Part shown: one piece after another, positions 184 through 18,122 of the stretch
How positions within the stretch are numbered: position 1 is the first letter of the stretch
How the letters are laid out: each line of letters starts with the position of its first letter
DNA from: an uncultured Acholeplasmatales bacterium
GTDB taxonomy: Bacteria > Bacillota_I > Bacilli_A > Acholeplasmatales > Anaeroplasmataceae
Direction: 5' to 3'
Assembly: GCA_944323055.1 (NCBI GenBank)
Contig: CALUQZ010000016.1
Span: 1 to 36,702 of the forward strand
Length of the DNA: 36,702 nucleotides
Made by a program: the position numbers and the translations under genes
Notes under the pieces: generated by a model
Told to the model about the DNA's origin: nothing
The model's input: the letters and a program-made list of their open reading frames with translations, nothing else
Databases searched by the model: none

Positions 184-3100
184 TTAAGTCCAATATATTG
201 AATACCTATTTATTAGATAATAAATATCATCCCACGTCAATATACCTTTACCTATAGCTACATTAAAGTATTTTGCTGGGAAAGCTAAATATACTTCATA
301 CGGAACTAAACCTTCAAACACAGAATAATCTAGTAGACCATATTTAGTAATATCCGCTTCCATTAATTCTGAATCGTATTGTAGATTATTATCATATTCA
401 AATATGTTAAATAATCCATCTATACCGCCTGGCATAGATAATAGACCTTCTGTAAAGTAATTTAAATGATATGCAGCAACAGGACTATATACTCTTACAG
501 TTTCTTTAGTTAAATAGGCGTCTGTAAGAACAAATTCAATGCCAGCATAATCACCATCTAATCCATAGAATTTATGCCCAATATAACTACGATAATTTGT
601 TGCTGTAATATATACATATTTATTTAAATCTAAATCAAAGAAACCATGTTCTGATACAACTCTAACTATAGAACCATTAGAGAATTTTAAATTAATTATT
701 GTGTATTCAGCTAATGATTCAGAATCGTTAAATAATACTTTAGCAACATCTAATTTACCAGATTCATGATTAAATACTAATAAGTAATCATCACTAGTTA
801 TATCTTCAACTTTCTTAGTAGTTCCATCAGCTAATGTAATTAAAGTACCTTCAACTAAACAAGAAGATGATGCATTTATATTGACAGGTCCTGTTGCCAT
901 GTAAATAGTACTACTATCATAATTTTGATTATTTCCATCGATTGTTATCGTTATACTTCGGTCTTCATCCCCACCATAATCAACACTAATTGTAAATTGT
1001 TTATCTACTAAAATATAAGAGCCATTACTATATGATGTTCCGTCAGTATCTTTCATGGTTACTGTTGCATTACTTGTATCAATTGTTACTAAATAATATT
1101 TATTATAATTTCTATATAAAGTAAGTGTTTGAGAAGCCCCTGTAAATGTATATGATGTTCCGTCATAATAAGTATTATTGCCATCATACCATTCACCACT
1201 AATAAATGAGTACTTAATACCATTAGAAACATTATTATATGTTTCAAAGTAATCATTAATATTGTCTGATATTATTTCTATGTTAGCATTTTTTGCAGCA
1301 TAATATTGAATTTGATTAAAGATATCTGTTCTTTCAATACCATCGATTTTAGCTATATATCTTACAACGTATTCTTTATCTAACCACTTAGCATATAAAG
1401 TAACAATACCTGTACTATTATCTGCATAGTCAGCTAATACAATATCACTTGTAAATGGTATAGTACCATCTTTATCTAAGTACCAACCAACAAAGTATTT
1501 TGAATATTCGCTATTACTATCGTATGTTAAGTATTTATCATTATAATCATCAATATTTACATCACTTGCAGAATTAATTGATTCTAAGTTATCTATAGCA
1601 ATATCAACATCATCATTATTGTTATCAAATACTATTGTATAACTTGATTTAAATTCACAATATAATGGTATATTATTGCCATATTGAGCTAATAATTCTC
1701 TTAATAAATCTTCTGTTATAGTATCTATCTTTACACCATCTTTATTTGAACCAACATACCAACCATCAAAGAAGTAATTATTGTAGGCCGCTTGTTCTAA
1801 TGTTAATGGTAAATCTGATATAGTAAATGATATTGTACTAGGTAAATCCACTTTATCTGTTATATCTGTTGTAGTTTCATCATCTACAGCTAATCCTACA
1901 CTATAATCAATTGTATAAATTGTTTCTTCAAACTTAGCATATAGATCAATTGATTCTCCACTATTTAATGTTTTAGTTGTAAATTTAGTATTAAAATTAG
2001 CATCTAAATACCAACCAACAAATTCGTAAAATTCCTTATCAGGAGTTAGCTCATTACCTGTTACAGTATAAGTAGTATTATCAAAAGGTTGATAAATAAC
2101 TCTTTTTTCAACTTCTCCATCAATATGGAAATTAATAGTAAAGCTATTTTCTACCCACATTGAACCATTATAAACATAATTTGTTTTGCTCAAATTACTT
2201 TGATCTATGTTTTTAGCTGTATTTGTCAATGTATTGGTTTCGTGGAAGAAAATCAATTTTTCTCCCCAACCTTCTTTACTAGTTATACTTAATTCACTAG
2301 CATCAGCTAAATTTAAAACAGCTCCTTGATTTTCGGAAGTTATAGTGCCAGCAAGAGAACCACCACTAACATTTAATGTCCCATTTACTAATATCATAGC
2401 ATTTTGATAAACTGTCGAATATTTATATGACCCATTATTTCCATTGCTTGGATTTAAACCAGCATCTTCCCAGTTTTCATAGCCTATAATTTTACCAGAT
2501 AAATTAACAATACCACCATCATCTATTATTAAAGAACTACCAGGTAATAATTTATAATATTGAGTGATATTAAATACACTACCAGAAGAAACTTTAATAT
2601 ACAAATTATGTGTTATTCCAAAATATAATCCAGCTGTATTAATATCATAACTTGCTACTGTTAATTGTCCAGAGTTATCGTGACCCTCACCGACTATTTC
2701 TAAAGTTACAATATTTGTATTAGAATCAAAATATTTTTTAACATGCCCAGAATTTAACTCAATAATTGCACCATCACCTATTAATGGATAGGTTGCACTA
2801 TTCCATTGATCAGGACTATTTGTTTTAATAGATGCAATGCCATAATAATTAGCACCCTTATTTATAATAATAGTACTTTCTATATTATGCATTTTATATT
2901 CATTAAATGGTACAATTTTACCAACTAGATATGATGCAGAAGCATTATTTCCACCACGCCAATTATATATAGCAAATGGTTCATATATATAAGAACCTTC
3001 GTTAGCTGTAATAGTGCCTGAACCAACAATATAGCCAAAACAATAAATTTTTGCAGCACTATCCAGAATCAAATCTGCATTTAAAGTTAACATGGCATAG

Positions 3101-6100
3101 TTAGAACAAACCTCACCTTGAGTACCATTTGCGCCATTAGAACTACCACGTGCCGCACCAATGGTAATTTTGCCAGAAACAACTAATTTTTGCTTTATCG
3201 TTATATTGAGATAGTTTTCATAGCTAGCTCTTATTTTTTCATTCGTTGAAGTTGCAAAATCGGTGCCTGTTTTAACACCATTTTCAATTAAATAAACTTC
3301 AGCGGTGTCAACATTCATATACTTACTTGCATTATCCATATCTTCATGTGGCAAATATAATTCAGTATTAGCACCTAATACTAGATCATTATTCCTATTA
3401 TCTAATTCACCTATTACAGCATTTCCATATACAAAGATATATGAACTTTCTTTTGCATGCTGACTAGCACTAATAGCATTATCTAAACTTGTATAAGATT
3501 TATAAATAGTATTTTCTGTAGTTTCAGTTATATTTTCGTAATTAATATCTGCACTATTCGTTGTTAATCTTGCTATATAAATATCAAAGTTAACTTTAGT
3601 AGAAAAACTATTGAAGTTAGAATCATCAACATTAAATTTATATGTATAAGTACCATAATTATCTAGGTAATTAGATAAATCAATCCTATTATCAAATCTA
3701 TCTAATGTAACATTAACTGTTGGATAAACATTAGTTTCAGTTCCTTTAATATAATATGTGTAGCCTATAGATAATTGATGTTCGTCATTCATTACATAAT
3801 ATTCACTATGTAATGTTTCACCATCATGAAGATTATCATTATTGATAGTTATACCACTTGGACTACCATCAAATTTTAAATTAATATCTAAATCAGCTTT
3901 ATAAATTATTAAAGTACCACTATAAGTATCATGTAAGACATATCTATCATCTGTTAATGTTAATTTATATCCATAACTACCAGCATCAGTTTCTTCTACA
4001 TTACCTAAAATTTCTACCTTATCTTCAGCAACTAAATTATCTATTTCATATGTAACATTATGTGGAGTTGCATCATATGTGTATTTATCTTTAATAATAT
4101 TTAGATATATAGTACGTTTATCTACGTTTAATGAAATATTAAATGTTGTTGTATAAGCTTGATTTTTATTATAAGTAAACTTAACGGTAGCTTCTGTACT
4201 ATCCATTGTAATCAAATCATTACTTTCAACTGTTAAAATACCATATTCAGAACTTAGATTAATATCACTAAATGCATCACCATATGTAACAGATACTGTT
4301 GATATACTTTCTATAACAATTAGAGTTACTTCTTTTGTAATACCTTTATATTCAGAAGTTTCTTCTTGAGTAATAATGATATTATAAACACCATGATTAT
4401 TAATAGATTCAATATTATATGTTAACTTACCACTACTAGATTTATTTATCTTATCTGTAAAATAATCACTAATATAGAAAACAGATTTATACATTTTTAT
4501 ATAATACTCATTAACCTGTAAATCATTATCGGCAGGTGTAACATTTATTGTAACACTAATATTAGGAATGACATTATAATTATCAGTATCTGTAGGTGTA
4601 TATGTAAGTGTTGTTTCATATGAAGGGGCTTTATTAATCTTATCATCTAGATTTGTAAAGCTAAATCCTTTTGGCAATGAAATAGAACTTAAACTATCAC
4701 CATATACAGCTGTTAAACCTTGTGGAACTTGATATTCCGGATCAGCTTTATTAATAGTTAAAGTAATTTCCTTAGGACTTGCTTCATAATAATCTGATTC
4801 TAATGAAACATTATATTCATAAGTATCTGCATTAGTATATTTAGCTGTATGACCAGATAATGTGTATTCATCATCTATTGCGCCTGACACACTAACTGTA
4901 ATACCGTGTCCTATGCCATCATAATTAATATTTAAGTCACTTGTTGTTTCAATAGTTACTTGTTTCTTATTAACTGTAAAAGTTACATTCTTATATTCAG
5001 TCTCATAATTAGTTTCATCATTTGGTGTAAATTTAGCCTCAAGTGTAATAGTTAATTTAACATAACCATTAGCTACACTAATAACTGTATCTAAGCTATC
5101 TACATTTAATTCCCACTTACCATTACTTGAGTTAGTTAATTTAATATCACTTAATTTATCTCCATAAGTAATATCATTTGTAACTTCAACATTTTCATTC
5201 CATTTATTCTTATTAACAGTTAAAGTACCCTTAACAAAAGTGAAATTATAATTATTATTTGTTGCAGTTATAACATAATCATAAGTACCTACATTATAAT
5301 TATCGCTTTCTTCTAAAGTAACTTCAATATTAGATAAAGACTCATCAGCATTATAGAATTTACCACTAGTAACTTTATATGTTCCTTTTGGATTATCTTC
5401 ACTATATTTAATGTCATATGAATCAGCAGTTAAAGTAATATCAGCAGGTTTAATTGTTAACTTAACTACTTTACTACCTTTATAATTTAAAGTATTAACT
5501 GTTAATGTAACTTCTTTTGATTCAGACACATTAGTAATACTAATATTTCCTGATACTTCTGGTTCACTATCATCGCCAACCATACCGGTAACATGATATT
5601 TAATAGTATGAGACGCGCCATCATAAATAAACTCATGTTCATCAACAACAATCTCTACTTCTTTTTGTTGAACTTCAATTTGAATTTCATATTTATAAGT
5701 TAACTCTGAAGTATTTGATTTAAAGACTACTATTCTTGTCTTAGTACCAACATCACCTAAATCTGAAGTGTCTTCAAAATACCATGCACCATATTCACTT
5801 GTTGGTAATTCTAACTTAGTTATATCATCACCATAAGTTAAAATGTTATTAGCATTTTCTAAAATGCCTTCTTTAGCTAATACAATAACTGTCGTTGTTG
5901 TAGTTGCTTCATTATAATGTTCACTTTCAGGTAAAGTAATAGTAACTTCATAACTACCAGATTCATTAGTAATACTATATTCAGGAGTTGATTCACTATG
6001 ACTAGGTTTAACATTATCTAATATTAAATCATCATCAACCATAAAGATATACTCTTTATCAGCTGTAACACTAGCTTCTGCTTTATTAACTGTTACAGAT

Positions 6101-9100
6101 ACACTTACTGTTACACTGTTATAGTTATTTTCATCTATTGGTGTATAAATTGCATTATATGATTTAGTTTCACATACATCTAAATTAGTAGATGCTTCTT
6201 CCCATGACCATGTACCATTATCGTCATTATATTCTGATAAACTAATATCATTTAATGTTAAACTATCATTCCAAACAACACTTAAGTTTTCTGGTGTTTT
6301 ACTTGGTTTTGCATCTACCTTATTAATAGTTAAATAAACTGTAATTTGACTTGCTTCATAATAATCAGATTCTAATGTTACATTATATGTATAAGGCCCA
6401 ACATTAGTATATTTAGCTGTATGACCAGATAATGTATATTCATTATCTATAGCACTAGGAACACTAACATTAATACCATGTTCATCGCCATCATAAGGAA
6501 CTGTAACATTCTCACCTACAATAGTTACAGTTTTCTTATTAATAGTAATTGTAATTTGTTTAGTAACTGTTTCATAATTTATTTTATCTTTTGGTGTAAA
6601 TAATACATTAATTACTTTACTTAAGCCATTATTATTAGTTATATTATCTTTATTTAATACTATACCTAAATCATCACTAATAGACCATTCTCCTAAATCA
6701 CTAGTTTGATTTAATATAATATTACCTAATGTATCACCATAATAAATTGTATTACTTATTGTAGGAACATCTACTTCTGGAGTAGCTTTTCTAACTGTTA
6801 ATTTACCAGGTGTAACGATAACTTCATAATTGCTATTTTCATCATATGTAATTACATAAGGATAACTAGAATCAGCATTTAAAACTCCTGTAGGATTTGC
6901 AATTTGAACATTTAAATCGTCACCTTTAATTACACCTTCAATGCTTAACACAGATTCAGGTACTTTATTACCATAAACCATAGATGTATTAGTCGATGTA
7001 ATTGTTACAGATTTAGGATTTATTGTTAAAGTTTTTGATACTTTAGATGCTTCATAATATTTAGATTCTAAAGTATAAGTTGCTGTATATTTACCAACAT
7101 TAATACCACTAGTATTACCAGCTATAGTAACCTTATATTTAGTTTCATCATTTAAATCATTTTCTAAAACATTAATAGAATAATCATCTAAACTTTGAGT
7201 CGTTTTATTATAAGTAACTTCTTTATCAGTAACACTAATAGTTACAGGTCGCTTATTAACTGTTACTGTAACAGTTGTTTCTTGCGTAACTTCACTACCA
7301 CTTGTTGGAGTAAATAATAATTTATACTCATCCTCATATGTGCCAGGTTTACCTAAAACAACATCAGGAGTTTCCCATGACCATTTACCTGTACTTGAAG
7401 TAGGAATATATACTGTATCAAGTGTATTGCCATAAATACCAATATATTCATATTCATTTATATTTCCTTCTGTAACTGTTACTTTAAAACTTAAAGGACT
7501 AGTTTCATCATAATGTGCACTTTGAGATAAATATACTGTTACTTCATATGTACCTACATCAATAATAGTACCTACTTCTTCATTATCTTTCTTAATAACA
7601 AAGACTAGTTGCCCTTCACCTTTATCAATTACTACATTATTTTTAACATTAGTAATAAAATCTTGACTATTAGCTATAAATGTTAAACTATCTTCTTTTA
7701 AACTAATCCTTGCATCTGTTCTTCTATTTACCGTAATTGTTAATGTTTCATGCTTAACATTATAATTACTATTTGTAGGTGTATAAGTAGCACTATAAGT
7801 TGTACCATCTATTAACTCTTCCGGATTATCCCAAGTCCAATTGTCTGGTAATGTTATTGTATTTAATTTTTCATTCCATGTACCAGCTAAATCAGAAGGA
7901 ATAGTATAGTTAGGATCATCTACCTTATTAATAGTTAAAGTAATTTCCTTAGAAATTGCTTCATAATAATCAGATTCTAATGAAACAGTATAATTATGAG
8001 AGCCTGCGTTAATATAAGTTTCTTCATGACCAGATAATGTGTATTCATCATCTATTGCGCCTGACACACTAACTGTAATACCGTGTCCTATGCCATCATA
8101 ATTAATATTTAAGTCACTTGTTGTTTCAATAGTTACTTGTTTCTTATTAACTGTAAAAGTTACATTCTTATATTCAGTCTCATAATTAGTTTCATCATTT
8201 GGTGTAAATTTAGCCTCAAGTGTAATAGTTAATTTAACATAACCATTAGCTACACTAATAACTGTATCTAAGCTATCTACATTTAATTCCCACTTACCAT
8301 TACTTGAGTTAGTTAATTTAATATCACTTAATTTATCTCCATAAGTAATATCATTTGTAACTTCAACATTTTCATTCCATTTATTCTTATTAACAGTTAA
8401 AGTACCCTTAACAAAAGTGAAATTATAATTATTATTTGTTGCAGTTATAACATAATCATAAGTACCTACATTATAATTATCGCTTTCTTCTAAAGTAACT
8501 TCAATATTAGATAAAGACTCATCAGCATTATAGAATTTACCACTAGTAACTTTATATGTTCCTTTTGGATTATCTTCACTATATTTAATGTCATATGAAT
8601 CAGCAGTTAAAGTAATATCAGCAGGTTTAATTGTTAACTTAACTACTTTACTACCTTTATAATTTAAAGTATTAACTGTTAATGTAACTTCTTTTGATTC
8701 AGACACATTAGTAATACTAATATTTCCTGATACTTCTGGTTCACTATCATCGCCAACCATACCGGTAACATGATATTTAATAGTATGAGACGCGCCATCA
8801 TAAATAAACTCATGTTCATCAACAACAATCTCTACTTCTTTTTGTTGAACTTCAATTTGAATTTCATATTTATAAGTTAACTCTGAAGTATTTGATTTAA
8901 AGACTAATATTCTTGCCTTATGACCTACATCACCTAAAGGTGAAGTGTCTTCAAAATGCCATTCACCATATTCACTTGTTGGTAATGTTAATTCACTTAT
9001 ATCATCACCATAAGTTAAAATGTTATTAACATTTTCTAAGATACCTTCTTTAGCTAATACAATAACAGATGTTTGAGTAGTTGCTTTCTTATAATGTTCA

Positions 9101-12100
9101 CTTTCAGGCAAAGTAATGGTAACTGTATATTTACTAGGTTCATTAGTAATATTATATGTAGGTTCTGATTCACTATGACTAGGTTTAACATTATCTAATA
9201 TTAAATCATCATCAACCATAAAGATATATTCTTCATCAGCTGTAACACTAGCTTCTGCTTTATTAACTGTTACAGATACACTTACTGTTACACTGTTATA
9301 ATTTTTTTCATCTATTGGAGTATAAACTATATTATATGATTTAGTTTCACATACATCTAAATTAATAGATGCTTCTTTCCATGACCATGTACCATTATCG
9401 TCATTATATTCTGATAAACTAATATCATTTAATGTTAAACTATCATTCCAAACAGCACTTAAGTTTTCTGGTGTTTTACTTGGTTTTGCATCTACCTTTT
9501 TAATAGTTAAAGTAACTGTAATATTATCTGCTACATAATAATCTGATGCTAATGAAACAGTATACGTATAAGTGTCTACATTAATATGTTTAGCTATATG
9601 ACCAGATAACGTATATTCATCATCTATAGCACTAGGAACACTAACATTAATACCATGTTCTTGACCATCATAAGGAACTGTAACATTATCACCTGTAATA
9701 GTTACAGTTTTCTTATTAATAGTGACAGTAATTTGAGCTTTAATAGTTTCATAATTTGTTATATCATTTGGTGTAAATAATACATTAATTACTTTACTTA
9801 AGCCATTATTATTAGTTATATTAGCTGAATTTAGAATTATTTCTTTACCATCACTAATAGACCATTCTCCTAAATCACTTGTTTGATTTAATAAAATATC
9901 ACCTAATTTATCACCATAATAAATTGTATTACTTATTGTAGGTACATCTACTTCTGGAGTAGCCACATTAACAGTTAAAGTACCTTTATTAAATATAACT
10001 TCATAATTTTCATTATGATAAGAACCTAAAATATCATAACTACCAACACCATTATATTCTCTATCAAGATATAAACTAATATTTAATTCATCATCTTTAT
10101 AAATAATTCCATCTTTTTGATAGCTATCATCATTATAACTAAAACTATATTCAGGGTAGTAAGTTACTTCAATATCATTAATAGTAACATTTACTTGAGC
10201 TTTATTAACTGTTAGAGTGCCTCTATATCTACCATAATAATTATTATCACTAATAGTTAATGTATATTCTTGACTACCAGCATTCGTTCTAGTTGTATTA
10301 GTTCTACTAACCTCAATACCAGATACTTCAAGTTCATAAGTTACTTCATGTTCTTCTCCATCATAAGTAAATGTATCAACAACACTATTAAATGTTAATT
10401 CTTTTTGTAAAATATTAACAGATAATGTTGTTTCTTTGCTTAAATCATTAGCCATTTGATATTTAGCTCTAAATTGTTGATTTTGACCAGCATTTAATAA
10501 AGTGCTAACAACACTAACCCATGACCATTCTCCTAGTTCATCACTACCAAGTTTTATATCTGCTAATGTTAAACCTTCTTCATATGTTACATTATCTAAA
10601 TTTAATAGATTAACAACATATACCATAACTTCTTTTGTTGCACCTAAATAATGATCTGTTTCTTCTACTTCATATCTAACTATATAAGTTCCAGCTTGAT
10701 TAAAGTCTTCTACACTATCACCATTTAAATAATACGTAGTTTTTATATTTGTTTCATTATTATTTGTGCTAGGTCTACTAATGTTAATACTTGAACCATC
10801 TAGAATAAATAAATATTCATTACTTGTTGTTTCAATTGTTGATGTTAATTTACTAACTTCAATTTCAAGTTCAACATTATTTAAAATATTATAATTATTA
10901 GTATCTTCTGGAGTGTAGGTTGCTATAAAAGTTAAGGTACCTACATTATTAATTCTTTGATTTTCGTTATTCCATTTATAACCTTTTGGTAGAACGACAC
11001 TACTTAAAGTATCTAAATAAGTAGCCTTTAGTTCTGGTTTAGTTAATATAGGATCAGCTTTTTCAATTACTAATCTTTGACCATTTAATTCGCCACTATA
11101 ATTAGAATCATCTATTACTAAATTGATATTATTAATACTACCAACATTAGTTAAACTTTCATTTCCTAAAACATTAGGAACATCATCACCATCTACTAAA
11201 CCGATGATCTCATATTCTAAACTATGAGACATGCCATCATAAGTAAATATGTTTTTAGTTATACTAATTTGAACATTTTTCTTATTGACAGTTATCGTAA
11301 TATCTTTTGTATAACTTTCATAATTTGTACTATCAGTAGGGTAGAATGTGAAATTAACAACAATATTACCAGCTTGATTTAAATAAAAATCACCATTTGT
11401 TAATTCCCAATGTCCACCACTGACATTATGAATATTTTGATTAGTTAAAGTATCGCCATAATATAAAGTATCAAATTCTGGGTCATTAGCTTCATATGAA
11501 GCCTTAGTAACTGTTAATTTGGCATTATTAAATACAACTTCAACATTTGTATTAGCTGCTTCATCGTATTCACAAACAAAATCATATTCACCAGCATTAG
11601 CAATATCAGTAGGGTAACTAACTCTAATATTTAAACTATCAATAATACTTTTGTCTAAATCACTAGTTATTTTATATTCTGGTGTACCTAAACTACCAAT
11701 TTTATCATAAGTTACAGTTTCAGGTGTAACGTCAACAATGACTTGTGCCTTATTAATGTACCAAAAACCACTAGTTTCACCGTAATAGTTAGGATCATCA
11801 ACTTTTATTGAATAAAAATAACCATCTTCATTAACATCTGTAGCCGTTATACCTTGCGTAACAACATCAAGGCCTGGAACAGACAAAGTATAAGGAAGGG
11901 TGATTTCACTACCTGTATAAGTAAATGTTTTATTACTAACTTCTATTGTTACTTCTTTTTGACTAACTCTAACTTTAACAACATCTTCTACTTCTTTATA
12001 AGTTAAAGGGTCATTAGGTATAAATTTTACCTTAAATTCATTAACACCGACTTCACCTACTGTAGTAGTTAAATCATCTATAAATTCAAAATGACCAATG

Positions 12101-12657
12101 CTATTTGATGGCAAAGTTAAATTAGCTAAAGTATCTCCATACACTGCATTAAGTTCTGTTAATGATGGTGTATCTGGTTCAATATCTAATTTAATTTTAG
12201 CATTTATTTGAATATTATCATTAATGCTTGAAGGAATATCTTCCCAACCGGCAAAACCAGAAATACTAGGAGTTTCAGTAGGAAGTGTTATTTCTTGAGC
12301 ATTTTCTACTAAAATTGTATCAAAAACACTGCCATTAACTACAAATTCAACTTTATAATAAACATTATATTTAAAAGTTGTAGTTATGCTATTATGACTT
12401 AACACTAATTGATTTTCCCCGATTGTATTAGTATTACCACCAGATACGACCATATCGCTAGTAACAGGAGTTTTTTCTTCACTATTTTGATCAACAAAAT
12501 ATAAGCCTGTTAAATCAACTAGTCGATTATCTGCATCATAAATTACTTCTTTGTTAAAACTTTCATCAACAAATGAATAAATATGTGTTCCTTGACAAGC
12601 AACTAATAATATGATGCAACTAAGAATACCTAACAATGTCAAAGTTAATTTTTTCAT
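184..12657 (-). CDS. Giant MBG-repeat surface lipoprotein with C-terminal Hint domain
   Basis: Predicted 4157-aa exported lipoprotein. An ATG nine bases further upstream directly abuts AGAAGGG, whereas the ATG used here has that ribosome site at 9-base spacing, so this start is preferred. Residues 1-21 form a lipoprotein signal (LLVAC, Cys21). About residues 170-3040 are tandem MBG-type Ig-like modules. Each set alternates a 'YGD.L..L' module, a 'TYDG..H' module and a third module ending in 'GTLTVNK'; at least 16 copies of the YGD-type motif are visible. About 3050-3485 looks like a beta-helix. About 3500-3850 holds three or four InlB/Listeria-Bacteroides-type repeats (FVGWYLD). From Cys3933 a Hint-like domain begins (CLVEGTLITLADG, then VVSEHGFFD). 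An 881-bp stretch is exactly duplicated inside the gene. It is last in an operon with an ABC exporter and an Ig-like protein. A role in adhesion or cell-surface structure with self-processing is inference; no enzyme domain was seen. Confidence 0.85.
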   Translation of the reverse strand: MKKLTLTLLGILSCIILLVACQGTHIYSFVDESFNKEVIYDADNRLVDLTGLYFVDQNSEEKTPVTSDMVVSGGNTNTIGENQLVLSHNSITTTFKYNVYYKVEFVVNGSVFDTILVENAQEITLPTETPSISGFAGWEDIPSSINDNIQINAKIKLDIEPDTPSLTELNAVYGDTLANLTLPSNSIGHFEFIDDLTTTVGEVGVNEFKVKFIPNDPLTYKEVEDVVKVRVSQKEVTIEVSNKTFTYTGSEITLPYTLSVPGLDVVTQGITATDVNEDGYFYSIKVDDPNYYGETSGFWYINKAQVIVDVTPETVTYDKIGSLGTPEYKITSDLDKSIIDSLNIRVSYPTDIANAGEYDFVCEYDEAANTNVEVVFNNAKLTVTKASYEANDPEFDTLYYGDTLTNQNIHNVSGGHWELTNGDFYLNQAGNIVVNFTFYPTDSTNYESYTKDITITVNKKNVQISITKNIFTYDGMSHSLEYEIIGLVDGDDVPNVLGNESLTNVGSINNINLVIDDSNYSGELNGQRLVIEKADPILTKPELKATYLDTLSSVVLPKGYKWNNENQRINNVGTLTFIATYTPEDTNNYNILNNVELEIEVSKLTSTIETTSNEYLFILDGSSINISRPSTNNNETNIKTTYYLNGDSVEDFNQAGTYIVRYEVEETDHYLGATKEVMVYVVNLLNLDNVTYEEGLTLADIKLGSDELGEWSWVSVVSTLLNAGQNQQFRAKYQMANDLSKETTLSVNILQKELTFNSVVDTFTYDGEEHEVTYELEVSGIEVSRTNTTRTNAGSQEYTLTISDNNYYGRYRGTLTVNKAQVNVTINDIEVTYYPEYSFSYNDDSYQKDGIIYKDDELNISLYLDREYNGVGSYDILGSYHNENYEVIFNKGTLTVNVATPEVDVPTISNTIYYGDKLGDILLNQTSDLGEWSISDGKEIILNSANITNNNGLSKVINVLFTPNDITNYETIKAQITVTINKKTVTITGDNVTVPYDGQEHGINVSVPSAIDDEYTLSGHIAKHINVDTYTYTVSLASDYYVADNITVTLTIKKVDAKPSKTPENLSAVWNDSLTLNDISLSEYNDDNGTWSWKEASINLDVCETKSYNIVYTPIDEKNYNSVTVSVSVTVNKAEASVTADEEYIFMVDDDLILDNVKPSHSESEPTYNITNEPSKYTVTITLPESEHYKKATTQTSVIVLAKEGILENVNNILTYGDDISELTLPTSEYGEWHFEDTSPLGDVGHKARILVFKSNTSELTYKYEIQIEVQQKEVEIVVDEHEFIYDGASHTIKYHVTGMVGDDSEPEVSGNISITNVSESKEVTLTVNTLNYKGSKVVKLTIKPADITLTADSYDIKYSEDNPKGTYKVTSGKFYNADESLSNIEVTLEESDNYNVGTYDYVITATNNNYNFTFVKGTLTVNKNKWNENVEVTNDITYGDKLSDIKLTNSSNGKWELNVDSLDTVISVANGYVKLTITLEAKFTPNDETNYETEYKNVTFTVNKKQVTIETTSDLNINYDGIGHGITVSVSGAIDDEYTLSGHEETYINAGSHNYTVSLESDYYEAISKEITLTINKVDDPNYTIPSDLAGTWNEKLNTITLPDNWTWDNPEELIDGTTYSATYTPTNSNYNVKHETLTITVNRRTDARISLKEDSLTFIANSQDFITNVKNNVVIDKGEGQLVFVIKKDNEEVGTIIDVGTYEVTVYLSQSAHYDETSPLSFKVTVTEGNINEYEYIGIYGNTLDTVYIPTSSTGKWSWETPDVVLGKPGTYEDEYKLLFTPTSGSEVTQETTVTVTVNKRPVTISVTDKEVTYNKTTQSLDDYSINVLENDLNDETKYKVTIAGNTSGINVGKYTATYTLESKYYEASKVSKTLTINPKSVTITSTNTSMVYGNKVPESVLSIEGVIKGDDLNVQIANPTGVLNADSSYPYVITYDENSNYEVIVTPGKLTVRKATPEVDVPTISNTIYYGDTLGNIILNQTSDLGEWSISDDLGIVLNKDNITNNNGLSKVINVLFTPKDKINYETVTKQITITINKKTVTIVGENVTVPYDGDEHGINVSVPSAIDNEYTLSGHTAKYTNVGPYTYNVTLESDYYEASQITVYLTINKVDAKPSKTPENLSVVWNDSLTLNDISLSEYNDDNGTWSWEEASTNLDVCETKSYNAIYTPIDENNYNSVTVSVSVTVNKAEASVTADKEYIFMVDDDLILDNVKPSHSESTPEYSITNESGSYEVTITLPESEHYNEATTTTTVIVLAKEGILENANNILTYGDDITKLELPTSEYGAWYFEDTSDLGDVGTKTRIVVFKSNTSELTYKYEIQIEVQQKEVEIVVDEHEFIYDGASHTIKYHVTGMVGDDSEPEVSGNISITNVSESKEVTLTVNTLNYKGSKVVKLTIKPADITLTADSYDIKYSEDNPKGTYKVTSGKFYNADESLSNIEVTLEESDNYNVGTYDYVITATNNNYNFTFVKGTLTVNKNKWNENVEVTNDITYGDKLSDIKLTNSSNGKWELNVDSLDTVISVANGYVKLTITLEAKFTPNDETNYETEYKNVTFTVNKKQVTIETTSDLNINYDGIGHGITVSVSGAIDDEYTLSGHTAKYTNADTYEYNVSLESDYYEASPKEITLTINKADPEYQVPQGLTAVYGDSLSSISLPKGFSFTNLDDKINKAPSYETTLTYTPTDTDNYNVIPNISVTINVTPADNDLQVNEYYIKMYKSVFYISDYFTDKINKSSSGKLTYNIESINNHGVYNIIITQEETSEYKGITKEVTLIVIESISTVSVTYGDAFSDINLSSEYGILTVESNDLITMDSTEATVKFTYNKNQAYTTTFNISLNVDKRTIYLNIIKDKYTYDATPHNVTYEIDNLVAEDKVEILGNVEETDAGSYGYKLTLTDDRYVLHDTYSGTLIIYKADLDINLKFDGSPSGITINNDNLHDGETLHSEYYVMNDEHQLSIGYTYYIKGTETNVYPTVNVTLDRFDNRIDLSNYLDNYGTYTYKFNVDDSNFNSFSTKVNFDIYIARLTTNSADINYENITETTENTIYKSYTSLDNAISASQHAKESSYIFVYGNAVIGELDNRNNDLVLGANTELYLPHEDMDNASKYMNVDTAEVYLIENGVKTGTDFATSTNEKIRASYENYLNITIKQKLVVSGKITIGAARGSSNGANGTQGEVCSNYAMLTLNADLILDSAAKIYCFGYIVGSGTITANEGSYIYEPFAIYNWRGGNNASASYLVGKIVPFNEYKMHNIESTIIINKGANYYGIASIKTNSPDQWNSATYPLIGDGAIIELNSGHVKKYFDSNTNIVTLEIVGEGHDNSGQLTVASYDINTAGLYFGITHNLYIKVSSGSVFNITQYYKLLPGSSLIIDDGGIVNLSGKIIGYENWEDAGLNPSNGNNGSYKYSTVYQNAMILVNGTLNVSGGSLAGTITSENQGAVLNLADASELSITSKEGWGEKLIFFHETNTLTNTAKNIDQSNLSKTNYVYNGSMWVENSFTINFHIDGEVEKRVIYQPFDNTTYTVTGNELTPDKEFYEFVGWYLDANFNTKFTTKTLNSGESIDLYAKFEETIYTIDYSVGLAVDDETTTDITDKVDLPSTISFTISDLPLTLEQAAYNNYFFDGWYVGSNKDGVKIDTITEDLLRELLAQYGNNIPLYCEFKSSYTIVFDNNNDDVDIAIDNLESINSASDVNIDDYNDKYLTYDSNSEYSKYFVGWYLDKDGTIPFTSDIVLADYADNSTGIVTLYAKWLDKEYVVRYIAKIDGIERTDIFNQIQYYAAKNANIEIISDNINDYFETYNNVSNGIKYSFISGEWYDGNNTYYDGTSYTFTGASQTLTLYRNYNKYYLVTIDTSNATVTMKDTDGTSYSNGSYILVDKQFTISVDYGGDEDRSITITIDGNNQNYDSSTIYMATGPVNINASSSCLVEGTLITLADGTTKKVEDITSDDYLLVFNHESGKLDVAKVLFNDSESLAEYTIINLKFSNGSIVRVVSEHGFFDLDLNKYVYITATNYRSYIGHKFYGLDGDYAGIEFVLTDAYLTKETVRVYSPVAAYHLNYFTEGLLSMPGGIDGLFNIFEYDNNLQYDSELMEADITKYGLLDYSVFEGLVPYEVYLAFPAKYFNVAIGKGILTWDDIYYLINRYSIYWT
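4849..5729 (-). repeat. Internal duplication, copy B (identical to 8026-8906)
   Basis: Comparing the two stretches line by line, I found no difference over 881 bases at a constant offset of 3177 bases (1059 codons, in frame). The first mismatches are at 4848/8025 and 5730/8907. The stretch encodes about residues 2309-2602 of the giant lipoprotein. Flanking sequence out to roughly 4740-6790 is also homologous to 7917-9967 but visibly diverged. The exact block therefore looks like recent gene conversion or recombination inside an older duplication of about 2 kb. Confidence 0.9.
8026..8906 (-). repeat. Internal duplication, copy A (identical to 4849-5729)
   Basis: Partner of the block at 4849-5729. 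It encodes about residues 1250-1543 of the giant lipoprotein, spanning a 'TYDG'-type, a third-type and a 'YGD'-type repeat module. Repeats this long and exact are also where short-read assemblies can collapse or rearrange, so the true copy number may differ from two. Confidence 0.9.
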
Positions 12658-12671
12658 ATTTGTCATCCCTT

Positions 12672-15668
12672 CTAACTTTGGTAAATGAACTTATAGGCTT
12701 CACCAGAAGCTATAAGTGCATCTTGAACTCTTGGGGTAAAGGCAGCTGATGTAGAGTCACATAATAAGAAATAAAAATCAGTATTACCTGCAGCGGCTAT
12801 TAAAGCCTCACCCATTGCCCCTACTGCGCTTGATACATCATCTAAGCCTATTTGATAATCATATAATGTATAGCTATTATAATTAGGACCATATTCAACA
12901 ATATCATAATTATAGCCACCACCAAAGAAAGCTATGCCACCATGTACATAATCTTTATAATTTCCATCATTATATAAAATGTCTTCATAACCACTTCCAG
13001 GTGTAGATAATTCTCTAACTAAAGCTGCCACATCAAATCTTAAACCAGCTAATATACTTTCTTCTGAACCAGCTGGCAAGTTAACATCAATTAAAGTTGA
13101 ACTATCAACTGAATCAAGTGGTTTCCAGTCATAAATCCTAACTGTATTTTCTAAAATTAATTTAGCTCCATAACTTGTTTTAGCTAAATTTTTCCAATAT
13201 TCTAGTAAACCACCTTCTGAGCCCATACCAGCAAAGGCGCCAATACCCATTAAAGCTGGTCCGGCAAAATGTGAATCAAGGCCAATACTAAAGATACCAC
13301 AATGTTCTAAAGCTACATTATTTAAAGTGACATAAGTCTTGATATATTTTTCATCATATGTTTTTTTATCTTCTTCTCTTAACTTACTATAATATTCATT
13401 AATTGACCTATTACTTGTACCATTAACTGGGAATTTTAATTTTTCATTTTCGTCTAAATATAAGCTATCATAATCTAAAGTGCCTCCTGTACCTTCACCT
13501 ATTGTTTTGGCATCTTTAAATTTATTAGAACCCATTCTAATAATAAATTCACGAGCATTTGATAAAATTGAATTATTAATAGTTAAATTACATACTTTAT
13601 CTGCATCTTTTTCATCGCCAAAAGCTCTTAAAACTGTTCTACCATTACTAATTCTTGAATAACTAATTGTCGCATTATCACCTAATAATTCAACTGTTGT
13701 ACCTACATAATTTAACTTAGTTAAATCATCGACATCATCACAACTTTTAACTATGACATTATTTAAATAAGCATTATCATGTAAAGCTACAAATATATTA
13801 TCTTGTGCCCTAACATTTGCTGCCCCAATGCCATCACTACCAATACCTACAAAGTTAAGTGGACCATCAAATAACAAAGTAGGCATTGCCCCTACAGCTT
13901 CATCATATTTATAAGTGACATTATGCGCATTAATTTCATAACCATTGCCATAAATAGTATTATAAACATCAAGTAAAACATTAACAGTAGGTTGTAATTC
14001 ACCTCTATTAGTATAATATCCATAGTCATAAGTCGTAAGCATTTCTCTATAATCAACACCTAAAACTAATTCTGTCGGGAAATCTTTAATACTATTTTTT
14101 AATACAACTGCTTCCTTATTATTTGTTGCTTCTTTTAATTCACTATAATTTGAAACATTTCTAGCATTACCTACTAATTTAACAACAAACTCACCATAAG
14201 TTTTAGTTATACCGTCATAATTTAATTCAACTCTAAATGTGACATCATTTGTAAAAGTAGTAGGGAAAGTTATCTCATAATTACTATTAGTTTGATTATA
14301 ATTAACTGTAACTTGATTAGCTACACTATTATTATTTACATAAGGAACTAATGTAATATATTCACCAAATAATTCTAATGCTTCCTCGCTAAGTTGAGCT
14401 AAACTTAATGTGTTTGTTCCTGAACCAAAAACTAATTCATTAGATATACCATAAACATTAGCTGATTCTAAAATATTAATGTTTCTAGGTAGGACAACTA
14501 TTCTAATATTATGAGATTTAGTAGTGTTATTATATGTAGCACTAACATTTAAATTGTAAAAACCTAATTTAGTAGCTTGTACAATTAATCTGTTATTACT
14601 TACAGTTGCTACTAAACCATCTACACTTGTAATATTATAAGATAGTCTAGCATCACTAGGACTAACAATAATTTCTACGCTATCTGTTTGATTTAAAGTT
14701 AAAGATATTACATCTTCAGTAAAACTAAAATCAAAATCAACCATAAAATTGACATTACAACTTACACTTCTTTCAATACCTGAAGGAAGTTTAAAATAAA
14801 CTTCAATTCGGTAAGTATCGTTACTAGTCAATTCCTTATTTAAAACATAATGTAAAACATAACCTGTATCATTAGGGGTTAAAGATGTTGTTATATCATT
14901 TGATAAAACATTATCATGATAAACAAATATTTCTAAATTAGATTCGTCATATTCTTCAATCGTATTAATACTTAAATATATATCTCCTTCATTACTTGAA
15001 GTATCAACACTAGTACTAGAAATATCAATAACATCTCTATTTAAAACAGTAATATCAACACTATCACTAACCCCATATCTTTCGCTTGAAACAGTAATTG
15101 TAGCAGTTCCTCTACTTCTAGCAATTAAATTTCCTGAGGCATCAACTAATAAAATGTCTTCATTACTAGAACTATATTCTAAAACCTTATTAGTCGGTTC
15201 GCTTGGTTCTAGTCTTGTTTCTACTTTTTTAGTATCACCAATATATAGATTGCTTAAAGCTTCTTTATTAGTTATTTCAATACTAGAAACAGCATTTGAA
15301 CTAACCTCGACAATAACGCTATCTCTAAAACCTCCATCATTTGTAACTACATTAACTCTAGCATACCCTGTTGATGTAGGTGTAACAATGCCATCATCTG
15401 TAATATCTAAACTAGCTAAAGGTAAGTCATTATAGCTTTCTACTTCAAAAGTAACTTCTCTATTAGCCGCATTAGTAGGGTAAACTGTATAATCAATTTT
15501 AGTTGGCAAAACGTCATCAATATCAAAATTTAAAAACTTTTCACTATTAACTTCAACGCCTGTAACAGCTATATCAATTGCTAATGAGACTGTCTCCGAT
15601 GTAGCATATAAACTAATCATAATGACAAGCGGAATAACAAGCATTAACAAAATTAATTTCTTGGCCAT
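12672..15668 (-). CDS. Exported Ig-like (BIG2) protein with beta-helix-like C-terminal half
   Basis: Predicted 998-aa protein. Residues 1-25 form a hydrophobic signal peptide or membrane anchor with no lipobox cysteine. Two BIG2/Ig-like domains follow (about 30-125 and 130-210; the second has the typical 'EYSSSNEDILLVDASGNLIARSRGTATIT' pattern in part), then further beta-rich, Ig-like segments to about 500. The C-terminal half has short strand-turn repeats rich in N, G and I ('LNNVIVKS', 'NLTINNSIL') resembling a right-handed beta-helix. The start is preceded by AGGAGG at good spacing. It sits 9 bp after the ABC permease gene, and its stop codon overlaps the ribosome site of the giant lipoprotein gene. 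The two surface proteins are therefore probably co-expressed and may act together. No catalytic motif was recognised. Confidence 0.8.
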   Translation of the reverse strand: MAKKLILLMLVIPLVIMISLYATSETVSLAIDIAVTGVEVNSEKFLNFDIDDVLPTKIDYTVYPTNAANREVTFEVESYNDLPLASLDITDDGIVTPTSTGYARVNVVTNDGGFRDSVIVEVSSNAVSSIEITNKEALSNLYIGDTKKVETRLEPSEPTNKVLEYSSSNEDILLVDASGNLIARSRGTATITVSSERYGVSDSVDITVLNRDVIDISSTSVDTSSNEGDIYLSINTIEEYDESNLEIFVYHDNVLSNDITTSLTPNDTGYVLHYVLNKELTSNDTYRIEVYFKLPSGIERSVSCNVNFMVDFDFSFTEDVISLTLNQTDSVEIIVSPSDARLSYNITSVDGLVATVSNNRLIVQATKLGFYNLNVSATYNNTTKSHNIRIVVLPRNINILESANVYGISNELVFGSGTNTLSLAQLSEEALELFGEYITLVPYVNNNSVANQVTVNYNQTNSNYEITFPTTFTNDVTFRVELNYDGITKTYGEFVVKLVGNARNVSNYSELKEATNNKEAVVLKNSIKDFPTELVLGVDYREMLTTYDYGYYTNRGELQPTVNVLLDVYNTIYGNGYEINAHNVTYKYDEAVGAMPTLLFDGPLNFVGIGSDGIGAANVRAQDNIFVALHDNAYLNNVIVKSCDDVDDLTKLNYVGTTVELLGDNATISYSRISNGRTVLRAFGDEKDADKVCNLTINNSILSNAREFIIRMGSNKFKDAKTIGEGTGGTLDYDSLYLDENEKLKFPVNGTSNRSINEYYSKLREEDKKTYDEKYIKTYVTLNNVALEHCGIFSIGLDSHFAGPALMGIGAFAGMGSEGGLLEYWKNLAKTSYGAKLILENTVRIYDWKPLDSVDSSTLIDVNLPAGSEESILAGLRFDVAALVRELSTPGSGYEDILYNDGNYKDYVHGGIAFFGGGYNYDIVEYGPNYNSYTLYDYQIGLDDVSSAVGAMGEALIAAAGNTDFYFLLCDSTSAAFTPRVQDALIASGEAYKFIYQS

Positions 15669-15677
15669 AGTTACCTC

Positions 15678-17336
15678 CTATAACACTAAGTTAATAAATC
15701 TTTCCTCTAATTTATATAAATAGAAGAGAATTGTTATACCTAGATAAATTAAACTAACTAACAACGCAGATATTACAACTAATACATCGACAATATTAGT
15801 AGTAATAACTACCGGCAATAATGTATCTAATAAAATTAAAGATACTCCTAAAATGATTGCTATTAAAAGGCCAGTAAAAACTAATTTAGATATCGTTTTT
15901 TCTTGTTTTTTAGCAATCTCATAACTATTTAAAGTTAAATTTGCCTTATTTAAATCCATCTTAGTACCAAGTAAAATTTGGCTTAATGAGAACATTATTC
16001 CTGATAATATCAATACAACAATTTCTAATGCTTTCATATTAGAAAAACAAATAATTATTATACTTGCTACTATAGTTACAATAGATGATATAACAAAAGC
16101 AAATACCACTTTAGCTAAAAAGATTTTTTTAGCAGAATAAGGAAAAACCTTACTCTTTAAAAAAGCAATTCCTTCTCTTGAAATATTAGTTGAAGAATAA
16201 GTATTAGTTAATACGACAAAGACAAATAATAATAGTAAACCTAAAACAAAATCAATCCGCAACCCAATCGCATTATATAATAAGTCTCTAAATAAGGTAA
16301 ATGAAGCAAAAACCATTAAAGGCATTGCTAAAGCTATCGCAAAATAACTAAATAAATTACCATTGTCTCTATAAGTCAACAAAAATTCTTTTCTTAATAA
16401 ACTTATAAAAGGTTTTCTAGCTTTTAACTTAGTTTTATATATTCTATCAACATGACCAGTTGAGGTATATAGCGTATGATTAAATAATATTTTAGCTAAT
16501 AATACACTTCCTATAAAAGCTACAATAATAACTCCTATAATTACTAAATAGGCAACTAAAGAATTTAAACCTAAACTAATATCAGCTAAAAAATTAATAG
16601 GATAAGCATAATTAGCTAAATTATTTAAGATAGCTATATTATTAGTATTAAAAATAAATCTAATATTACCTGTTTCTAGTAATGTTCTAAATATATCTAA
16701 TAATTTACTATATAAATAAAAACCACCACTTAATAAAGCAACATAAACAATTAATGTTAATAATTGTCTATCTCTAAAAAAGTTTAAAACTTTAATATAA
16801 GGAACTAATAAAATAGTAGCTAATAAAAATGGAACAATAGGGAAAAATAATATGTTAAATAGTGTCCCAACAATATATAAGATACTAAAATCACCAATAG
16901 CTACATAAAAAATAATATTAGCTGGTATTATAATTATAGCTCCAGCAAAAGTAGCTAACAGATAAGTAACGATAAACTTAGATAAAAAGATAGTACTAGA
17001 TTTAAGAGGTAATCGTAAAATAATTGCTTTATCTTTAATATCTACTATTATTTTACGCTCTTTTTCTAAAATAAAAAACAATAGGAAAATGCTAAAGACT
17101 AAATATATTAAATTTAATAACTCTTTACTTCTTAATATACTACTACTATTTCCTTCAAAAGATAAAGTAACATAGCTTTTAGCTATAGCTAAAGCTATAT
17201 AAACTAACCCAACAATAACAATCAATAATAAAACAACTGTAAAGATAGTACTTAAAACATCTCTTTTTTCTCCTTTACCACGTGTAAAGAAATGTTCTTT
17301 TAACTCCTTTTTTAACAATACATTAAATTTTCTCAT
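15678..17336 (-). CDS. ABC-2-type exporter permease
   Basis: Predicted 552-aa integral membrane protein with about twelve hydrophobic segments in two halves, separated by a basic cytoplasmic stretch near residues 300-330 (TKLKARKPF.SLLRKEFL). The N-terminal 'LLKKELKEHFF' and the repeat of 'LLRKEFLLTYRD' in mid-protein are typical of fused ABC-2-type permeases. It overlaps the upstream ATPase gene by ATGA, so the two are translated together and form one transporter. The next genes encode two exported surface proteins. Substrate is unknown: it might handle a cell-surface component or a lipid, but the surface proteins themselves carry ordinary Sec signals and need not be its cargo. Confidence 0.8.
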   Translation of the reverse strand: MRKFNVLLKKELKEHFFTRGKGEKRDVLSTIFTVVLLLIVIVGLVYIALAIAKSYVTLSFEGNSSSILRSKELLNLIYLVFSIFLLFFILEKERKIIVDIKDKAIILRLPLKSSTIFLSKFIVTYLLATFAGAIIIIPANIIFYVAIGDFSILYIVGTLFNILFFPIVPFLLATILLVPYIKVLNFFRDRQLLTLIVYVALLSGGFYLYSKLLDIFRTLLETGNIRFIFNTNNIAILNNLANYAYPINFLADISLGLNSLVAYLVIIGVIIVAFIGSVLLAKILFNHTLYTSTGHVDRIYKTKLKARKPFISLLRKEFLLTYRDNGNLFSYFAIALAMPLMVFASFTLFRDLLYNAIGLRIDFVLGLLLLFVFVVLTNTYSSTNISREGIAFLKSKVFPYSAKKIFLAKVVFAFVISSIVTIVASIIIICFSNMKALEIVVLILSGIMFSLSQILLGTKMDLNKANLTLNSYEIAKKQEKTISKLVFTGLLIAIILGVSLILLDTLLPVVITTNIVDVLVVISALLVSLIYLGITILFYLYKLEERFINLVL

Positions 17337-18064
17337 ACTAAAGCTTCTCTTTCTGTTTTAGATAAGAAATACTCTTCTAAATCTTTACCTGTATTATTAA
17401 ACTCTAAAATATTTACTTCTTCTAATAATCTACCTTGGTCAATGACATAACATCTTTGACATAACTTTTGAACATCTGTTAAATTATGACTAGAAAAAAT
17501 AATACCATTACCCATTTTAGCATGAATTTTAAAAAACTCTTTAACCTGATTAGCTGTATAAGGATCAAGACCTACCATTGGTTCATCTAATATAAATAAT
17601 TTCGGATTATGAATTAAGGCAGCCATAATTGATATTTTTTGTTTCATACCATGTGAATAAGTTCTAATAGTCTTATTAATACTAGGTCCTAATTGAAACA
17701 ACTTTTGGAATTCTTCTACCCTTTTTTCTCTATCACTTTGACTTACATTGTAGATATCAGCCATAAAATTAATAAACTCTATACCTGTCATTTTTTCATA
17801 TAAACTAAATTCATCTGGAACATAACCAAAACATTTTTTAGCTTCTATCGGTTTCTTTTGTAAATCATTACCACAAATTGTAATTTCACCTTTATCATAA
17901 GGATGCATGCCACATATACATTTAATAGTTGTTGATTTACCTGCCCCGTTATGACCAACTAAACCTACTATCTCCCCTTCATTTAAATTTAAGTTGATAT
18001 CGTTAATCGCATAATTACCTTTTTTTGTGTATTTTTTATATAAACTTTTCACTTCTAGAATCAT
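17333..18064 (-). CDS. ABC transporter ATP-binding protein
   Basis: Predicted 243-aa ATPase. Walker A is GHNGAGKST (residues 37-45). The signature region reads YSHGMKQK in place of LSGGQ, as is common in ABC-2-type (CcmA/DrrA-like) exporters. Walker B is LFILDEPMVGLDP and the switch histidine is in SSHNL. It is the first gene of the left operon, with a near-consensus sigma-A promoter and a GGGAGG ribosome site 6 bases before the ATG. It powers the permease encoded immediately downstream. The family also includes immunity and self-protection pumps, so function beyond export is open. Confidence 0.9.
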   Translation of the reverse strand: MILEVKSLYKKYTKKGNYAINDINLNLNEGEIVGLVGHNGAGKSTTIKCICGMHPYDKGEITICGNDLQKKPIEAKKCFGYVPDEFSLYEKMTGIEFINFMADIYNVSQSDREKRVEEFQKLFQLGPSINKTIRTYSHGMKQKISIMAALIHNPKLFILDEPMVGLDPYTANQVKEFFKIHAKMGNGIIFSSHNLTDVQKLCQRCYVIDQGRLLEEVNILEFNNTGKDLEEYFLSKTEREALV

Positions 18065-18092: not shown

Positions 18093-18122
18093 ATTATAAA
18101 ACTTTACTTATTTGTGTGTCAA
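18093..18122 (-). promoter_or_regulatory. Sigma-A promoter of the left surface-protein operon
   Basis: On the minus strand TTGACA (18117-18122) and TATAAT (18093-18098) are both perfect and separated by 18 bases. The start codon of the ABC ATPase gene lies about 29 bases beyond the -10 box. This is the only good promoter seen for the four genes down to position 184. Confidence 0.85.

Follow-up and report, generated by a model that had tools for sequence, protein, structure and literature searches.

The C-terminus of a 4160-residue lipoprotein encoded in the window (the whole stretch of DNA analysed, 36,702 nucleotides of contig CALUQZ010000016.1 from an uncultured Acholeplasmatales bacterium) consists of a Hint domain followed by a conserved helical tail. 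By sequence comparison, this Hint + tail module is a real conserved family, both bacterial and phage, to which no curated model was matched. Among the carriers, the giant MBG lipoprotein is one of the more extreme. The family probably cuts its carrier proteins and may chemically re-attach them. No description of it was found in the open-access literature, the only part that was searchable.

An earlier note on this DNA had placed the gene at 184-12657 and given a protein of 4157 aa with the cysteine of interest at 3933. The open reading frame was intact, but the plus strand at 184-12666 contains stops throughout, and the gene was reassigned to the minus strand (12666 to 184, 4160 aa from the first ATG). 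The cysteine likewise stood while its number did not: because the earlier numbering was counted from the second Met (MTNM-KK), it is now Cys3936. The features of the gene and its product are as follows.

184-12666, minus strand, giant lipoprotein gene, intact, 4160 aa, a single ORF read from the first ATG
12595-12666, minus strand, signal peptide and lipobox LVAC24
4108-12144, minus strand, 16 YGD-type MBG modules, aa 175-2853
2302-3549, minus strand, probable parallel beta-helix region, aa ~3040-3455
1933-2142, minus strand, InlB-type repeat (Flg_new), aa 3509-3578
436-861, minus strand, Hint domain, aa 3936-4077
859-861, minus strand, Cys3936, the presumed nucleophile
646-648, minus strand, His4007, the block-B histidine
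187-435, minus strand, conserved helical C-terminal tail, aa 4078-4160, putatively adduct-recognition-like

The lipobox reported earlier was found as L-V-A-C24 after a basic and hydrophobic signal, and the host genome encodes both Lgt and Lsp. An iterated profile gave exactly 16 YGD-type MBG modules where at least 16 had been claimed (Pfam MBG_2, 2.2e-14), and the InlB-type repeat was matched by Flg_new (2.4e-7) and TIGR02543 (3.6e-10). Within the MBG stalk, aa 886-1584 and 1945-2642 (~700 aa, ~2.1 kb; window positions 7915-10011 and 4741-6834) form a duplication with 93% DNA identity, which suggests a recent change in length. The beta-helix at aa ~3040-3455 is likely from modelling: many relatives have a core homologous to this region, and in a model of aa 3030-4160 short-strand ladders were present at ~3160-3400 with mostly good local confidence. 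Confirmation of the claimed beta-helix by fold search was not obtained, as none among the 50 Foldseek matches listed for this model was a beta-helix structure, all 50 being Hint structures.

When the whole giant protein was searched as a single sequence, no Pfam or NCBIfam match to Hint was obtained, and an AXH (ataxin) match (0.012) from the single-sequence search was rejected as misleading, family-based searches having given Hint instead. An AlphaFold model of Hint + tail, built with 23 relatives, had a pLDDT of 93.4 and a pTM of 0.88. Foldseek against the PDB returned intein 6fre (7.1e-9), with TM-scores by target of 0.83 for the BIL domain 2lwy and 0.80 for Hedgehog 1at0, and the family profile against the PDB matched Tetrahymena BIL2 (6y75) best at 1.6e-6 and Hedgehog at 0.0024. 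Taken singly, 18 of the 23 members matched Pfam Hint PF01079 (best 1.5e-8) and 12 matched TIGR01445 (intein_Nterm). From the predicted structure, aa 3936-4077 is a genuine Hint domain, with the fold, the N-terminal Cys nucleophile position and the block-B His of the superfamily. The earlier proposal of a Hint domain starting at the cysteine is thus upheld, the HINT fold being predicted and the pair Cys3936/His4007 present.

Conservation was assessed in 51 non-redundant sequences (<80% identity to each other), and Hedgehog residues were mapped using a sequence verified against 1at0. Cys3936 is invariant (51/51) and His4007 is found in 49/51, the other two having Gln; Gly3970, Phe3995 and Gly4030 are near-invariant. 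An invariant Cys with a near-invariant His is consistent with a working N-S acyl shift. The further suggestion of the earlier note, that the part upstream of the cysteine could be released or transferred, is partly supported; the tail, the many other carriers, the missing C-terminal His-Asn and block-B Thr, and the operon with a co-occurring surface protein are additions to that note. Mean pairwise identity was 32% in the Hint domain, 36% in the tail and 11% over the 13-residue linker that precedes the Cys, and the residue at -1 is mostly Gly or Ser but unfixed (Gly in 18/51; Ser3935 here). The unconserved linker with mostly Gly or Ser at -1 would fit a cleavage junction. The ~80-residue tail after the Hint domain is confidently helical by DSSP and pLDDT and matched no known family; being as conserved as the Hint domain, it suggests recognition of something, and by analogy with Hedgehog its role may be adduct recognition.

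Relatives were found in 18 loci from gut and rumen Clostridia and Bacilli genomes. Of the 395 genomes of the window's class, 34 had a match at E <= 0.001; within the window's own family 5 of 55 genomes had one, besides a single toxin-like match. Genomes with a strong match among the 34 were designated carriers (23 genomes); a further strong match, G293, was left out because it lacks the tail. Phage contigs also carry relatives, while INPHARED phages gave no match and plasmids gave none beyond two weak matches to Leptospira polymorphic-toxin HINT domains. In most carriers the module is the extreme C-terminus, with 0-25 aa after it, and N-termini vary, including the lipobox of the window protein, a prepilin motif (L010), a dockerin (L024), PARCEL/DUF285 and a 'GFSSW' exported type. 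Since the module ends many unrelated surface proteins as well as phage proteins, the giant fibre is one of numerous carriers. The phage carriers are proteins of 760-822 aa with the module at the end and no evident signal peptide, and their genes lie directly after the terminase and portal genes.

L056:8378-10681, phage Hint + tail gene right after the portal gene
L057:8354-10681, phage Hint + tail gene right after the portal gene
L104:4228-6693, phage Hint + tail gene right after the portal gene

A very long ORF follows the phage Hint + tail gene (>3000 aa in L056). Among the bacterial loci, the Hint carrier of L010 (1954-6675) opens with a prepilin-type N-methylation motif and is adjoined by other prepilin-like genes, and L022 (109-7543) encodes three adjacent proteins (1601, 587 and 276 aa) with a common N-terminal stretch, the middle one ending in Hint + tail.

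In the window, the giant gene is the last of a four-gene unit with gaps of <=9 nt, in the order ABC ATPase, ABC permease, P0002 and giant gene after the promoter.

18093-18122, minus strand, sigma-70 promoter ahead of the four-gene unit, 12/12 consensus, by consensus match only
17333-18064, minus strand, ABC ATPase, from its own sequence
15678-17336, minus strand, ABC permease
12672-15668, minus strand, P0002-family surface protein, 998 aa, with Big_2 and a repetitive region

A homologous ABC arrangement adjoins the Hint genes of L064 and L088, and P0002 relatives adjoin Hint genes in several loci. The P0002 family is present in 18 of the 23 carrier genomes vs 34/395 genomes of the class (p = 1e-17; p = 6e-10 when co-occurrence is tested by genus); shared ancestry inflates such p-values, an effect that the genus-level test lessens without removing. 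The co-occurrence extends to genomes in which the two genes lie at a distance from each other. P0002 is in itself a recurrent uncharacterised surface-protein family, and genus-mates of the host have P0002 without Hint. At other loci, many Hint genes have directly upstream of them, often with an overlap or a gap of up to 20 nt, a gene for a small exported protein having a GFSSW start; the window lacks this gene, and most of the small upstream genes matched no known family. Another lipoprotein-like protein of the window (30540-33239, 899 aa), its sequence judged by eye, has repeated Ig-like segments and a pectate-lyase-like C-terminal half.

The host genome (G000) yielded no sortase, nor did 23 of 24 carrier genomes, and the search for a PBP transpeptidase was negative both in the host genome, which is 96% complete, and in the listed members of its genus. 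The lack of a PBP transpeptidase indicates that the host, a gut-type bacterium, is probably wall-less, and with no sortase either, the usual attachment to a wall would be unavailable. Wall-less hosts as an explanation of the module were rejected, as there was no association (PBPs in 8/23 carriers, p = 0.39).

The closest layout to that of the family is the Hedgehog Hog domain, which likewise has a Hint fold, Cys258 and His329 as equivalents of the Cys and His, a C-terminal helical region of similar size and no splicing C-terminus. The family differs in lacking the Thr of the TXXH motif, in an unfixed Gly at -1, in an only partly conserved Asp303 equivalent and in a tail without a known-family match; its carriers are bacterial and phage, and cholesterol is not implied. 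The recognition region of Hedgehog is described as a helix-loop-helix, and the conserved helical tail, in the same place, is likened to it by position and helicity. On this analogy Hint + tail would work like a Hog domain, a Hint followed by an adduct-recognition-like region, and from it we infer as follows that catalysis occurs, when it occurs, what the tail does and what kind of acceptor is used. The last ~225 residues would be a Hint-superfamily autoprocessing module of Hog-like layout. After export, Cys3936 would attack the Ser3935-Cys3936 peptide bond with the help of His4007 to give a thioester, a step for which described Hint chemistry is the basis by analogy (PMC9163320, PMC7664689, PMC5874633). 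The thioester would be resolved either by water, giving self-release, or by an envelope molecule that the tail recruits and that reacts through a hydroxyl or amine, giving transfer, like that of cholesterol in Hedgehog. The Hint domain and tail would then be discarded, leaving a mature protein with a lipid-anchored N-terminus, a long MBG stalk, and then the beta-helix and repeats with a newly exposed or modified C-terminus.

Autoprocessing at Cys3936, by transfer or release, is on balance probable, and self-processing may go together with transfer of the protein to a molecule of the envelope. A fuller reading is less likely than not: a sortase-independent, Hedgehog-like attachment in which Hint + tail, a module that phages also have, would join the C-termini of diverse bacterial surface proteins by a covalent bond either to an envelope molecule or to the co-occurring P0002 in bacteria without sortases and sometimes without a peptidoglycan wall. 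The phage carriers, having no evident signal peptide, indicate that a surface or membrane lipid would not be the general acceptor. Cholesterol transfer by Hedgehog has been regarded as singular (PMC7242414). The compact, probably self-cleaving module with its conserved tail may define a new ligation chemistry. The family could account for the way in which gut bacteria with neither sortase nor wall complete or anchor their surface proteins and, having the Hedgehog layout in bacteria and being small enough to express, would be a simple system in which to test the origin and chemistry of a Hint plus recognition region.

The main rival is release by water, in which Hint + tail is cut off hydrolytically during maturation (for example as a folding or export aid) and no adduct is formed. 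It is possible, if doubtful as a complete account, and as a sub-case of autoprocessing its confidence overlaps with that given above. The module also occurs in the portal-adjacent phage proteins, where a membrane acceptor is unlikely, and BIL domains are described as yielding mainly cleaved products (PMC7664689); plain hydrolysis, however, would not require the tail, whose conservation matches that of the Hint domain.

Hint + tail is unlikely to have kept the fold without catalysis, as a domain for assembly or binding. Position 4004, which corresponds to Thr326 of the Hedgehog TXXH motif (the block-B Thr, which inteins have as well), is I, V, A or L and never Thr among the 51 sequences, and Asp3981, which aligns with the Hedgehog general base Asp303, is acidic in just 27/51 and was therefore dropped as a conserved catalytic mark. 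This loss of the block-B Thr, the variable general-base position and the two members without His all count against autoprocessing, as does the unfixed -1 residue, and the first three favour a non-catalytic domain; against such a domain, the Cys is invariant in all 51 sequences though most positions vary.

The likeness to PT-HINT (PF07591) polymorphic toxins is the place of Hint, close to the C-terminal end of exported proteins that are long and repetitive. In such systems HINT domains sit just upstream of toxin tips (PMC3482391), and a weakly related protein of this look is encoded in a genome of the window's family (L006), so that the tail could be a toxin released by the Hint domain. This is very improbable, since the tail is short and conserved above the Hint domain's own mean identity, not polymorphic, and no recurrent downstream gene, as a candidate immunity gene, was found beside the Hint loci. 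Membership of PT-HINT was rejected, there being no variable toxin tip and no adjacent immunity gene.

Protein splicing or an intein-type mobile element, to which the Hint fold and the intein_Nterm matches might point, has next to no likelihood. By an alignment to 6y75 and by counts over the 51 relatives, the end of the Hint domain (positions 4078/4079) is mostly M or I and then P or T, without the C-terminal His-Asn of inteins and BIL domains; hence splicing is unlikely and N-terminal chemistry alone is expected. The module ends the protein and leaves no C-extein, and it contains no homing endonuclease region. Membership of the inteins was accordingly rejected (no C-terminal Asn or Gln with a following nucleophile, no C-extein), as was that of the BIL domains for the missing His-Asn. 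BIL domains (2lwy; Tetrahymena BIL2 6y75) resemble the family in providing its best PDB profile match and in sitting in variable secreted proteins, and differ in that the family lacks the His-Asn of BIL2 and carries an extra conserved tail.

Thioester-domain (TED) adhesins of Gram-positives share the idea of a surface thioester able to bond covalently, but the cysteine domain here has the Hint fold, on which ground membership was rejected. TED adhesins contain a stable internal Cys-Gln thioester and do not use a main-chain acyl shift. A likeness to TasA/SipW biofilm-matrix operons is seen in L084 (5098-7969) and L024 (223-7399), in which genes for a SipW-type signal peptidase and a SipW-type matrix protein lie beside the Hint gene. 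The small GFSSW-start protein encoded upstream of many other Hint genes is a further likeness; the differences are its absence from the window and the lack of a known-family match for most of the small genes. Finally, a predicted giant-virus Hint protein (BFVD A0A3G5A239, Gaeavirus) matched over 219 columns with a TMq of 0.66 vs ~0.5 for Hint-only matches, and from the models this match possibly takes in the tail.
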